This document shows, piece after piece, positions 13,501 to 41,136 of a DNA stretch of 64,000 nucleotides. A program made the translations under genes and the position numbers. Under the pieces are notes generated by a model, which was not told the origin of the DNA, ran no database searches, and was given only the letters and a program-made list of their open reading frames with translations. Position 1 is the stretch's first letter; each line of letters opens with the position of its first letter. This DNA comes from Mimachlamys varia. Taxonomy: Eukaryota; Mollusca; Bivalvia; Pectinida; Pectinidae. The DNA is taken from assembly GCA_947623455.1 (NCBI GenBank), contig OX392536.1, positions 8,489,282-8,553,281 on the forward strand, read 5' to 3'.

Positions 13501-16500
13501 CGAAAGCTTTAGAAAAGTCTAAAATTGCCATATCAATTTGTTTCTTTTTGTTGGTTAACTACGGTAGTATACATGCCCCTTGAATGTACCCCGTGACTGC
13601 CAAATCATGTGACATTTATTCCGGAAAGTTGTAACTCAGAAACGGCTTATTGGTTCCAAAGGCTGCACTTAATAGAATAAAACAGATCATTGAGATAGGA
13701 TTCGGACAAAAATGTTTTTATAAAGTAAATTTGTACTTTGTATCATAACAAGAACAGGTAGTACACCTGATGTGTGACATTATCGTCATCAATTCCAGAC
13801 AATTTGCATACATATTACCACTATTTGTGGGGATTTTTCTTGTAAAAATGTGTACAGTGAAATTTACAGCAGCATTAAGTGGAACCATTTAATCACAGGG
13901 ACATGTTACAATAGTAGTGTCATATCACTATCCAAGGGTTACGATCCGCACACTCATCTTCACCCTTGGCATATATAGGCCACATTTCGTAAATCCCGCG
14001 ACGAGAATTTTCATTGGATGCAGCTAGGTCTGGCTGCGTCCAATCAGAGCGCACCTTACATTTGATCACGCGCTCTTCTTATGGGACAGAAAAAAATGTA
14101 AACAAACATGGCACAGTGTCGACTGTGTCATGGATCTTTACCAGTAAAACAGAGAAGAACAATCTTCAACGACACATTTACGGCAAGGACTCAGTGCGTC
14201 GATCGCCGTTTCCTGATGCTGTTTAATTTTATCAAGCTTGAATTTTTCATAGATGAACCGAATGAGATGTTCTTCCTTGTTTACATTCATTGCAGAAGCC
14301 GTTTTGTTACACGCAAATTTGATTGGTCGGTGATTACGTGATTCAAAGGGACACAACGCACACCGACCGCTAGGTGGCAGACCCGGGAGCTTTCAATTTT
14401 GCCATGATATATTCCTGGGGTGTAGATTACATAGGTGATCGTAACCCCTGGATATCGAGGATGTAGTAGTGTATGTATAAAATATATGGGGGGTCGATAT
14501 AAACATATCGACCCCCCATATATTTTATACATACACTACTATTGTAACGTGTCCCTGTGATTTAATTGTGCCAAAATTAAAATGAACGCTTGTGCAATTT
14601 TACCTCTGTAGAATAGGGATGGGTACTAATAGGGACAGGCGTGCTAATTACGGCCAATACAGTATATATGTACTTTCAGTTACTCTTTTAAAAAAAATCT
14701 TGAAATATCATACCTAATTTATCAGTGCTAATTCTGATTAATAGCATAACATTTATAGATTTTTGTATTATGTTTTTCTTTTATTCTAGACCAATAAATT
14801 CTCTGGAAAAGAAACAAGGCTCTTTTTCTGTACTTGAATGCAATGCTGACAAAAAGGAAGTGACAGTGAAAGAGAGGCTAGGAGTAAATCCCAACACCAA
14901 GTCCTTCTTCTTTGACCATGTGTTCCCACCATCGTCCAAACAGATGGATGTCTATCAGTCTGTGGTCACCCCCATCATTGACGAAGTTCTGTCAGGGTAC
15001 AACTGTACTGTCTTTGCGTAAGTATATTCACCCCCATGCATCATCAATGAAGTTCTGTCAGGGTACAACTGTACTGTCTTTGCGTAAGTATATATTCACC
15101 CTCATCATTGATGAAGTTATGTCAGGGTACAACTGTAGTTTGTACTGTCTTTGCGTCGTAAGTATATATTCACCATCATCATCAATGAAGTTCTGTCAGG
15201 GTACAACTGTACTGTCTTTGCGTAAGTATATATTCACCCTCATCATTGATGAAGTTATGTCAGGGTACAACTGTAGCTTGTACTGTCTTTGCGTCGTAAG
15301 TATATATTCACCTTCATCATCAATGAAGTTATGTCAGGGTACAGTTGTACTGCCTTTGCGTGAGTATTCACCCCGGCCCCGTCATCAATGAAGTTATGTC
15401 AGAGTACAGTTGTAATGCCTTTACGTGAGTATTCATCCCGTCATCAATGAAGTTATGTCAGGGTGCAATTGTAATGCCTTTACGTGAGTATTCACCCCTG
15501 TCATCGATGAAGTTATGTCAGGGTACAGTTTTACTGCCTTTGCGTGAGTATTCATCCCGTCATCAATGAAGTTATGTCAGGGTACAACTGTCTGGACTGT
15601 CTTTGATCAGTAATTGACCCTTTCCTGATGGGATCAGTGATTATAATTTAAGGAAACTGTGCAGAGATCAAAATATGATTTTAATCTATGATACACTGAT
15701 ATGATTGCTTCAGGTACGGACAGACTGGCACAGGAAAGACGTTTACGATGGAGGGTGACCGTACAGATGATCCAGACATTTCCTGGGAAGACGACCCTTT
15801 AGCTGGAATCATTCCTAGAGCTATGAACCATGTATTTGAGAAGCTGAAAACTCAGGTAAAAATGATAACATCAGTAGTACCATTTAACCAAGTTGTCATT
15901 CTGTTTCCCAAGAATTTTAAAAGAATGGTAGCAGTAATGAGAACTCAGACAGTTTTGTGCCAGTTTTGTGTTTTTTTTGCTATAGATATTTGTAGCTGAC
16001 CAAAGTGTCAATTTAATGACATCAAATATCACATCAGATTGTAACTAAGGCTGGGCGGTTTTACCGGTACACCGTGGTATAAAGTTGTGATGGTACGTAC
16101 CGTGGTACATAAGTCCTGTACTGGTTTTTTGGGAACGTTCATTTAACTTACAAAAGAACTATTTGTTACATAGATCAATTGGAATTCCAATATGGTGTAT
16201 TATAATTTCCAATAAATTTGTTGATCAACTAGGACAGACATAGCTTCACTCAAACAATATTAGAGGATAACACAGCAAGAAAATTATGACAGGCCTCTTG
16301 TTGATTGACTTCAGAACAAAAACAGCCAGACCTTTACCCAACTCAGACATTCAATCAAGATGGTATACCGTCGTTTGTACCCCCGTATTTGCCTGAATAC
16401 CGTGGTATACCATGGTACATTTGATTTTGTGGTACCCAGCTCTAATTGTAACCAGTAACCAATATGCTACATAACATTTTACCTCTTCTATCTACTTCCT

Positions 16501-19500
16501 GTTGGTCTGAAATCAATACTATTATACCTGTACATACAATTTTGTCGGTTCATACAATTTTGTCGAACAGCTATTTTGAAATATTTTCATTTCAAAGGAC
16601 AGGTATCCAAAATTATGGTCATTTTGAAAATAACTTTGTTTTAATTGTTATGAAATTCATGTAAATTTTATTTTGAACAAAATTTGGAAATGGTGTGTCA
16701 ATATTTTATTTTAAAGGATGTGGAGTTTTCTGTGAGGGTCTCGTTTCTGGAGCTTTACAACGAGGAATTATTTGACCTTTTGGGGTGTGGTGATGATACA
16801 CTGAAGCTCAAGATATACGAGGACAGTACAAAGAAGGTAACTAGGACCAGTCTGGTACAATGTGTGAGAGCGTACACCACTTAAAGGAATCACACAACTA
16901 AATCAGCCTATCACGAAGTGTTTCATACGTTTGTAGTCCCTACCGAAAATTTGTTCCGGCTAAGTACAGTGATTCTGAATAATCTAAATAGGTAATTGTT
17001 GACATATTCTGCATTGAATGAAATCTATAGATATTTAACTTTACAAAAATGTATACTTTTGGTAGATTTTGATATGTGATGGCGGATTGATATGGGGTCA
17101 AAAGTCAGAGGGTGTTCCCGTCCCATTTCACTGATTTGATATGTAAATTTCTAGTTTGCCGAAGCAGACGCCCGTAGCGAGCTAAAATGCCACGAAACTT
17201 CTGATAAAATGTCATTTGAAGTCTTTGCCATGTATGTATCTGTGAATCCAGGCAGTTGTCACTAGTGTTGAACTTCAAATATTAAAGTTATTAGCTCTAA
17301 AGCTTAGTAATAACATATAGTAAATTATTTAGTTGTGTGAGTCCTAAAGGCCGAATATACGTAACCTCAGGAATTTTTTCGTGATTCTGAAAAATTCCAA
17401 CAAAAAATCCAGTTAATAACCATGCAAAAATAAGCCTAAAACGAAGTAAACCTGAGCGGTAACTAACAAGAAACTCTTGACAGAAAAATCCAGAGAACTG
17501 AAAATAACTCAGGTGTGGCCCACTTCAACAACAAACCGAAGGTAGAAGACGGTTCATAATGGACACGTGTTTACGAATACCGAGTTTCAACTACCGCTGT
17601 ACCGGTAACCGTGTACAGGGCTCTCGCTGGGCTGTATTTGGAGCCGAAATTCGGCCCCATTCCCAATCTAAAATAGTATGTTTTTTTCACAATCGCTCAA
17701 GCTGATTTTCACAATGAATTGTGAGCATTTTGTTTTGCACAACCCTGTAAAAGATAGTGATAGTTAAGAGACTGGGTTTTTGACTTCTGAAACAACAATA
17801 AACTACTTTGAATATATAAGAGAAGAAATTTTTAGTTGGGTTTCTTATATTTGTCAATAACTTAAATTTTCACAATTTTAGTCAATACCGCGATAGTTTT
17901 CACAATTCTGAAGGCCCCGGCCCCATTCACACTAAAGTGAGAGAGACCCCTGGCGTAAGAATTCATCTTGAATATTGCTGATACAGTAAACTCCACTTAA
18001 TGTCACGTCGGTTAATATCACTTTTCGGTTATTATCACGTTTTCTTCATGCACCGTTTTTCCTGCTATATAATCTATGTAATGCCATTCTTTTAATATCA
18101 CTTGTTTCCAGGTGGATTTCGGTTAATATCACTTTTTTTGGCCACTGTCACACAAAAATTACAGGTAAATGTTAGAAATAATTTCATATAAATGCCCCGG
18201 GGACTCGAGTTTCACACCTGAAATCGCTATGTAAACAACGCCGTGGTCAGCTGCGTCTTTTTCACACCTACCTGATCACTGCCGTACTAGTCGAACAATA
18301 GATTGACTTGGCATACCGGAGCAAAGATTACACCTTTGGGTGAGGGAACCCATACTTTTGTAATCTTTTATAACGCCATGTGTGATTTAATGAGTTCCTA
18401 ACACGAGTTCCATTTTTCATTTCAGCTCGTCTTAGATCGAATTCACGTTGTCGTGAAGAAGGCTTACAAGTGGATGGTCTTCCGTAAACATGACGAAATA
18501 TTGATAGAAATTAAAATAAAAAGTGTCTTTTAAACAATAAGTGTCCAATTAATTAATTTAAGCTAATGTTCACGTAAAATGCAGAGATATCGTCTTTGTT
18601 ATGATTTTTAAATAGCCAAAGTACGACTCCGACATGCCGTGATTCTAGGCAGGCTGGTGAATAAATATAAGTGCCGAGACTAAATCTTATCGCGTGGTTG
18701 TTTTATTTGCATAGAGGTCATCCAATGAAACGTCACGTTTCAAAGGTAAAAGTTCATTTCGCGGTAGCGCTATACAACCGACAAACTCTGTGAACACGAT
18801 GTCGCACTTGCAGCGAATATCTAAAGAAATTAAACAAACAACAGATTTCACAAGCGAAAAACCAGTATACATATCAAGATAACGGTAAATATTTACGGAG
18901 TGTCATGATTTCAAAACACGAATTTGATGCAGAATACCAGCCACTTGTATGCCTAACGTTACATCATTAGTACAGTAGGCCTACTGCAGTAAACAATCGT
19001 AGTACGTTTCGTCCCTGGTTTCGTGTGAAGCTAGCCTACTGATAATATTACGTACGAACAATATATATGAAAATAAGTGCATTCCAGAACAAAACCAAAG
19101 ATTATACGGTCACTGGAGTGAAAAAAACATTGTTAGTGATAAAATATCTTTATTCAACAATCTTCTCTGTTGAGTCACAGCACTACGACATTTAACCAAG
19201 TCCACTTCCGGTTTTGAGGGCTGAAAAATGTGAGAAAATACGTTTTCTTTTAATATCATGTTCCGGTTAATATCATGATTTCCCCGGACAAATGAGAAGT
19301 GATATTAAGCGGAGTCTACTGTATCAGCTAATCTTAGCTAAATCTATAAATAAAATAAGTTATTAGGCTTGATTTTCACTTCAAGTTCTGCCGAAAGTTA
19401 CATATATTGGGCCTTTAAGTTTGAAACCAGGGTTTCTAGTACATGTAGATGTTGAATCATGTGCCAGCGTGTGGGGGGGAGGGGGGGGGTGTCCTGTCAG

Positions 19501-40816: not shown

Positions 40817-41136
40817 GTGAGTAATACTTTAGTGACCAGACTGACCAACACTCAGCGTGGCTGGACAGAGTTGGACAAACTACAGCATCTACACAGGTGA
40901 GTAATACTTTAGTGACCAGACTGACCGACACTCAGCGTGGCTGGACAGAGTTGGACAAACTACAGCATCTATACAGGTGAGTAATACTTTAGTGACCAGA
41001 CTTAACGACACTCAGCGTGGCTGGACAGAGTACAACAAATTACAGCATCTACACAGGTGAGTAATACTTTAGTGACCAGACTGACCGACACTCAGCGTGG
41101 CTGGACAGAATTGGACAAACTACAGCATCTACACAG
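40752..41136 (+). repeat. Tandem array spanning exon 14 donor, 5 copies of 80 bp
   Basis: The exact 80-bp period runs from ACAGTGACCAGACTGACC to CTACAGCATCTACACAG and the donor GTGAGTAATACTTT. The exon has ACACTATGCG where intronic copies have ACACTCAGCG. In the copies, CTTTAG precedes TGACCAGACTG, so each looks like an exon with weak flanking splice signals. Confidence 0.96.

Follow-up and report, generated by a model that had tools for sequence, protein, structure and literature searches.

Tandem arrays across exon boundaries, in excess at 5' splice sites, in kinesin genes of the scallop Mimachlamys varia

We analysed a stretch of 64,000 nucleotides from the scallop Mimachlamys varia (C10:8489282-8553281 of assembly xbMimVari1.1, 975,302,275 bases; hereafter, the window), which carries a copy of a kinesin-5 (KIF11-like) gene, and found that six exon-intron junctions of this gene lie within tandem arrays that copy the splice site itself (Table 1). 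Arrays of the same kind were present in other kinesin genes, where they overlapped donors, the 5' splice sites, well above expectation. Being boundary-spanning, built of site-specific units and unstable in copy number, they belong with the 'mirages' of lancelets, and we think it probable that they are largely neutral and are tolerated at donors since the first donor leaves the reading frame intact.

The exons of the window gene were located by tblastn with a human KIF11 query, and their splice signals were judged by eye, which placed exon 1 at 7475-7537 and left fourteen exons in the model. The best database match to the joined exons 1-12 was KIF11 of Mizuhopecten yessoensis (94% identity, 80% query coverage), and the two results together bear out the identification of a kinesin-5 gene in an initial annotation of this DNA. 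The six junction arrays named there, each described as including the splice site, were all recovered by Tandem Repeats Finder (TRF) and direct reading, and every set of tandem copies takes in the edges of exon and intron along with the splice site between them. The protein is continued by the exon end in the first copy of every donor array, and by the last copy in the acceptor array of exon 9. As had been claimed, units of different junctions share no sequence (their longest common word is at most 9 bp), which disposes of a single mobile element as their source.

Table 1. The kinesin-5 gene copy and its junction arrays, in positions of the window
Feature	Position	Strand	Description
Kinesin-5 (KIF11-like) gene copy, exons 1-14 as modelled	7475-40816	+	tblastn and splice signals by eye
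Donor array, exon 2 (exon end 15017)	14966-15605	+	~60-bp unit, ~10 copies
Donor array, exon 7 (exon end 23119)	23106-23168	+	2 copies, 38 bp apart
Acceptor array, exon 9 (exon start 27381)	27149-27409	+	92-bp unit, 2.8 copies
Donor array, exon 12 (exon end 31178)	31122-31727	+	68-bp unit, 9.0 copies
Donor array, exon 13 (exon end 39440)	39400-40146	+	77-bp unit, 9.7 copies
Donor array, exon 14 (exon end 40816)	40751-41142	+	80-bp unit, 4.9 copies; none at the 3.04 Mb gene copy

Kinesin-5 is present on C10 in six copies, one in the window and the others at 3.04, 8.015, 8.395, 8.673 and 8.957 Mb: the exon 13 array was found again at five further places on this contig, and Pfam kinesin exon matches lay at the same six places (the counts of that search are lower bounds, with kinesins elsewhere not sorted by type). 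At each of the five other copies 40 kb of DNA was read, with 8 kb more at two. Exon DNA was 99.2-99.5% identical to the window at 8.015, 8.673 and 8.957 Mb, 94.7% at 8.395 Mb (7/11 exons) and 92.9% at 3.04 Mb; intron identity was 96.4-97.8% inside the cluster and 89.5% for the 3.04 Mb copy (895 aligned bases). All six gene copies carry the arrays of exon 9 (2-4 copies), exon 12 and exon 13, whereas that at exon 2 occurs in all five in which this exon was read (8-13 copies), and that at the exon 14 donor in five of the six. Even between nearly identical gene copies, however, the number of repeats is unstable. The exon 12 array has 6.0 repeats in the 3.04 Mb copy, 9.0 in the window, 9.9 at 8.957 Mb, 28.3 at 8.395 Mb, 40.6 at 8.673 Mb and 59.6 at 8.015 Mb, and the exon 14 array has 3.9 at 8.395 Mb, 4.9 in the window, 7.9 at 8.957 Mb, 12.9 at 8.673 Mb, 22.9 at 8.015 Mb and none at 3.04 Mb. 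The 8.957 and 3.04 Mb copies include exons 15-17, each of which bears a donor array, and exon 15 an acceptor array too.

Array presence and absence among the gene copies, seen at exons 7, 8 and 14, allow the births of arrays to be traced. The exon 14 donor of the 3.04 Mb copy is an empty site, where the intron start matches the sequence found past the last repeat elsewhere, and each inner repeat of the exon 14 arrays holds, between its donor and the next copy, 8 bases that are absent from the empty site. The 3.04 Mb copy alone has arrays at the acceptors of exons 7 and 8, the latter array bounded by the 5-bp repeat AACTG, and its exon 7 donor has about 13 copies, as against two in each of the five other gene copies. 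The exon 17 donor array is built of a 52-bp unit in the 3.04 Mb copy and of a 41-bp unit, with different breakpoints, in the 8.957 Mb copy, so we read the two as separate births, which look convergent. Together with the unrelated units, these differences uphold the earlier suggestion of independent events. The 8 added bases at one breakpoint and the 5-bp microhomology at another would point to end joining rather than to a cut at AG/GT. The junction keeps no set position inside the unit (19 fractions, partly estimated by eye; Kolmogorov-Smirnov P 0.63), evidence against cutting at the splice site itself. The same result, and the fact that no new intron was seen, led us to reject intron gain by duplication of AG/GT, a route that the initial annotation had brought forward.

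That annotation had also considered six such junctions exceptional for a single gene. For comparison we used exon clusters of other kinesin genes, picked for compactness (19 stretches, 57 exons), of which 54 exons came from Pfam matches and three (in L027, L029 and L039) were added by hand, two because an array pointed there; these denominators are approximate, because some matches end without a sure donor. Donor arrays were found at 11 of the 57 exons (in L024, L025, L026, L027, L028 with two, L029, L035, L038, L039 and L041), or, with the hand-added exons set aside, at 9 of 54, and acceptor arrays in L038 and in L027, where an entire short exon is repeated. Set against these, the window gene with arrays at 5 of its 14 donors is not exceptional (Fisher P 0.28 against 11/57 and 0.14 against 9/54), and the full kinesin-5 gene, with 8 of 17, differs weakly (P 0.03 and 0.02, respectively).

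The proposed scan for junction-overlapping repeats against a null took the form of a sample of genes and one genome-wide word test, which gave an enrichment for donors and, in the sampled genes, acceptors at expectation. In the former, the unit of each array was placed randomly, as its founding unit, in 21 control stretches over 20,000 shuffles, the input being 26 array rows and 67 exons without those added by hand (the array in L026 is uncounted, its 21-bp row having been lost to an overlapping row). Eight donor arrays were observed against 1.16 expected, a number reached in 1 of 20,000 shuffles, and acceptor arrays were not enriched (1 observed, 1.15 expected); with the hand-added exons included, the figures were 10 against 1.21 for donors (0/20,000) and 2 against 1.20 for acceptors (P 0.34). 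Donor arrays outnumber acceptor arrays by 19 to 6 over kinesin-5 and controls together (P 0.015) and by 11 to 2 in the controls alone (P 0.022). Thus, of the suggested targeting of duplications to exon edges, a preference for the edge is borne out for donors only. Inside the window gene, itself rich in arrays, an excess over chance depends on the null chosen: moving whole arrays gave P 0.23 for all 18, 0.20 for periods of at least 20 and 0.011 for periods of at least 40, whereas placing the founding unit gave 0.0003, 0.00015 and 0/20,000, respectively. This null counted five junction arrays, the exon 7 pair standing outside it as not listed by TRF, and used ends of exons 13 and 14 that were placed too far right, though still within their arrays.

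In the word test, the donor word CAGGTAAGT occurred 30,635 times in the genome and formed 10,516 pairs 29-59 bp apart (34%), as against 299 such pairs among 5,463 occurrences (5.5%) of the same word read backwards, which served as control. The counts for CAGGTAAGT are weighted heavily by long arrays and include some words that are not real donors; the acceptor counterpart, TTTTGCAGG, lies outside them. Judged by eye, 100 pairs among those listed resolve into 12 separate arrays, and 6 of the 38 separate places among those listed are clusters, four of them fitting the pair pattern; the places listed are the first on contig C1 and are incomplete, an array at 3.406 Mb standing in the list of pairs and missing from that of places.

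Comparable structures have been described elsewhere. According to the available portions of two papers on lancelets (amphioxus), mirages are tandem repeats over exon-intron boundaries of the Adh3, globin, troponin C and PGBD5 genes, where the messenger RNA was reported to be undisturbed and splicing to be correct by reverse transcription PCR (PMC3087553, PMC3902484). As far as these portions go, the scallop arrays are like them in that minisatellite-like copies run across 5' or 3' exon boundaries and take the splice signals with them, in that units vary by site (10-72 bp in lancelet Adh3, 150-160 bp in the globins) and in that copy number is unstable, between haplotypes in the lancelet and between gene copies in the scallop (PMC3087553, PMC3902484). 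They differ in belonging to another phylum, in extending over many sampled genes and in coming with a genome-wide word count and a donor excess; moreover, the correct splicing that was tested by reverse transcription PCR in the lancelet is, in the scallop, what we infer. Boundary tandem repeats are also on record for human genes in segmental duplications, with 27 intron modifications after manual checking and some transcripts altered, in the accessible text of PMC2812944; there too minisatellites vary in number between recent gene copies, but the scallop arrays affect, within a small sample, roughly one donor in every seven.

Two further systems may be compared. In intron gain at AGGT, duplication of an exon segment containing this motif gives rise to a new intron lying between the copies (PMC3443670; a potato case, PMC4974935). 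Splice signals are likewise copied by tandem duplication in the scallop, but the segment straddles an existing junction, and no new intron was seen between AGGT copies, the arrays sitting at existing introns common to the six gene copies. Introner elements (a topic of PMC9860276), like the arrays, tie repeated DNA to splice sites in many genes. Introners, however, are dispersed copies of one element, whereas the scallop units of different junctions are unrelated. In the open-licence literature we found no report of such arrays in a scallop, nor of mirages in molluscs, at genome scale or with a donor excess.

How such arrays could come to crowd at donors may be pictured as follows. A mirage would be founded by tandem duplication of a segment lying across an exon edge, after which changes in copy number would lengthen or shorten it. 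The spliceosome would use the first donor, which is transcribed first and lies nearest the exon, and the other copies would be removed as intron, so that duplication of a donor would be nearly free. At an acceptor, in contrast, the false sites come first, and within an exon the protein is altered, so duplications there would mostly be weeded out. Duplications might thus be founded in many places and survive best over donors, where the first-made donor wins.

Several points weigh against this neutral account. Its sieve explains donors over acceptors, not donors over plain intron; it leaves part of the excess over introns unaccounted for, and requires in addition that arrays near donors be founded or retained more often. 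Acceptor arrays do exist, with up to 9 copies. The two CCT chaperonin genes that were read (L042, L043; 10.8 kb) carried arrays at 0/13 exons and lacked any tandem array with a period of 20 or more, and the tendency to form arrays may vary with gene class or expression. We infer use of the first donor from reading frame and sequence. Finally, the motif GTRAG is commoner at array donors (14/19 against 19/47, P 0.028); the full donor strength score, however, did not differ (P 0.13), and we rejected stronger donors as the cause of the arrays.

The excess over introns is what a germ-line mutational process aimed at 5' splice sites would yield if it founded the duplications there, for example through breaks at the exon end tied to transcription and splicing, and if selection were minor. 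The donor excess over random placement, the difference between the two readings of CAGGTAAGT, the two births at one exon 17 donor and the weak GTRAG association all agree with it. On the other hand, the breakpoints do not fall at AG/GT and the junction takes no constant position in the unit, the sieve accounts for donors over acceptors with no targeting, and we know of no molecular route for such a process; we therefore regard it, with selection minor, as rather unlikely. The broader proposal that duplication in the germ line prefers 5' splice sites, and that about one donor in seven genome-wide has a fast-changing array of complete extra donors, we put forward tentatively.

The extra donors could instead be kept because they are of use, securing or regulating splicing as spare sites or decoys, a possibility that the initial annotation had raised as selection for decoys. 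GT is retained in the second copy in 19 of the 19 arrays examined, and in pooled counts changes were fewer at GT (15/634) than elsewhere outside the donor core (825/17,860). This signal was lost once GT in the inner copies was ranked against the remaining letter pairs of each array (P 0.08, mean percentile 0.41; of 18 arrays, 17 could be used, several of these belonging to related gene copies, and the window exon 2 array was left out since the refined consensus lacked its donor motif), and the ranking shows neither upkeep nor loss of the copies. In 16 of the 19 arrays, moreover, the distance from first to second donor is no multiple of 3, so that splicing at the second would be out of frame, and copy number ranges from 6 to 60 at one junction. 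We accordingly dropped selection for decoys, and hold helpful extra donors to be improbable.

That ordinary minisatellites hit the junctions by chance in an array-rich genome appears more improbable still: moving whole arrays in the window gene is compatible with it for the 18 arrays, and the backwards control word is itself paired at times, but the founding-unit nulls and the word test reject chance for donors, though not for the acceptors of the control genes. Tandem arrays are a usual site of assembly error, but an assembly artefact is scarcely credible, since the assembly was built from PacBio Sequel II reads (according to the part of PMC11252643 at hand), the repeat copies diverge by ~0.5-10% from their consensus, and the junction arrays turn up again in separate gene copies, with comparable arrays in other genes.

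The window copy itself may be decaying. Its exon 13 (39237-39440) is 4 bp short compared with the five other gene copies, so that the reading frame is broken, and exons 15-17 of the full copies were not found in the 23 kb past its exon 14. Nor were they found in the 6-9 kb read past exon 14 in three other copies, so that four of the six kinesin-5 copies, the window included, show none of them in the DNA read. In the 8.395 Mb copy, exons 1-4 and 11 were not found within the DNA read, and a kinesin match lies directly upstream.

Other repeats in the window include arrays of a 26-bp unit in the introns after exon 11 (29781-30631, 33 copies) and exon 12 (34539-38936, 169 copies), whose length varies greatly among the kinesin-5 gene copies, and two arrays of a 145-bp unit (31910-34201, 15.8 copies; 48854-49604, 5.2 copies) whose units look alike, as would those of a dispersed satellite. 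Intron 1 holds, on the reverse strand at 12629-13156, a 175-amino-acid open frame that, judged by a motif, would resemble the end of a non-LTR (long terminal repeat) retrotransposon protein.

Mirages have been known, as far as the portions of the sources at hand tell, from a few lancelet genes; here they are found in a mollusc, in many sampled genes and with a measurable excess at donors, and the kinesin-5 gene copies show one and the same site empty, with a short array and with a long one. The arrays are informative on the origin of minisatellites and on intron growth, and they are relevant to gene prediction, because the intronic copies of exon ends may be taken for exons. With up to ~60 near-identical donors behind one exon, they provide natural experiments on donor choice, that is, on whether the first-transcribed or the strongest donor is used. 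If a process targeted to 5' splice sites were indeed at work, the genome would be a natural assay of a spliceosome choosing the first among dozens of equal donors.

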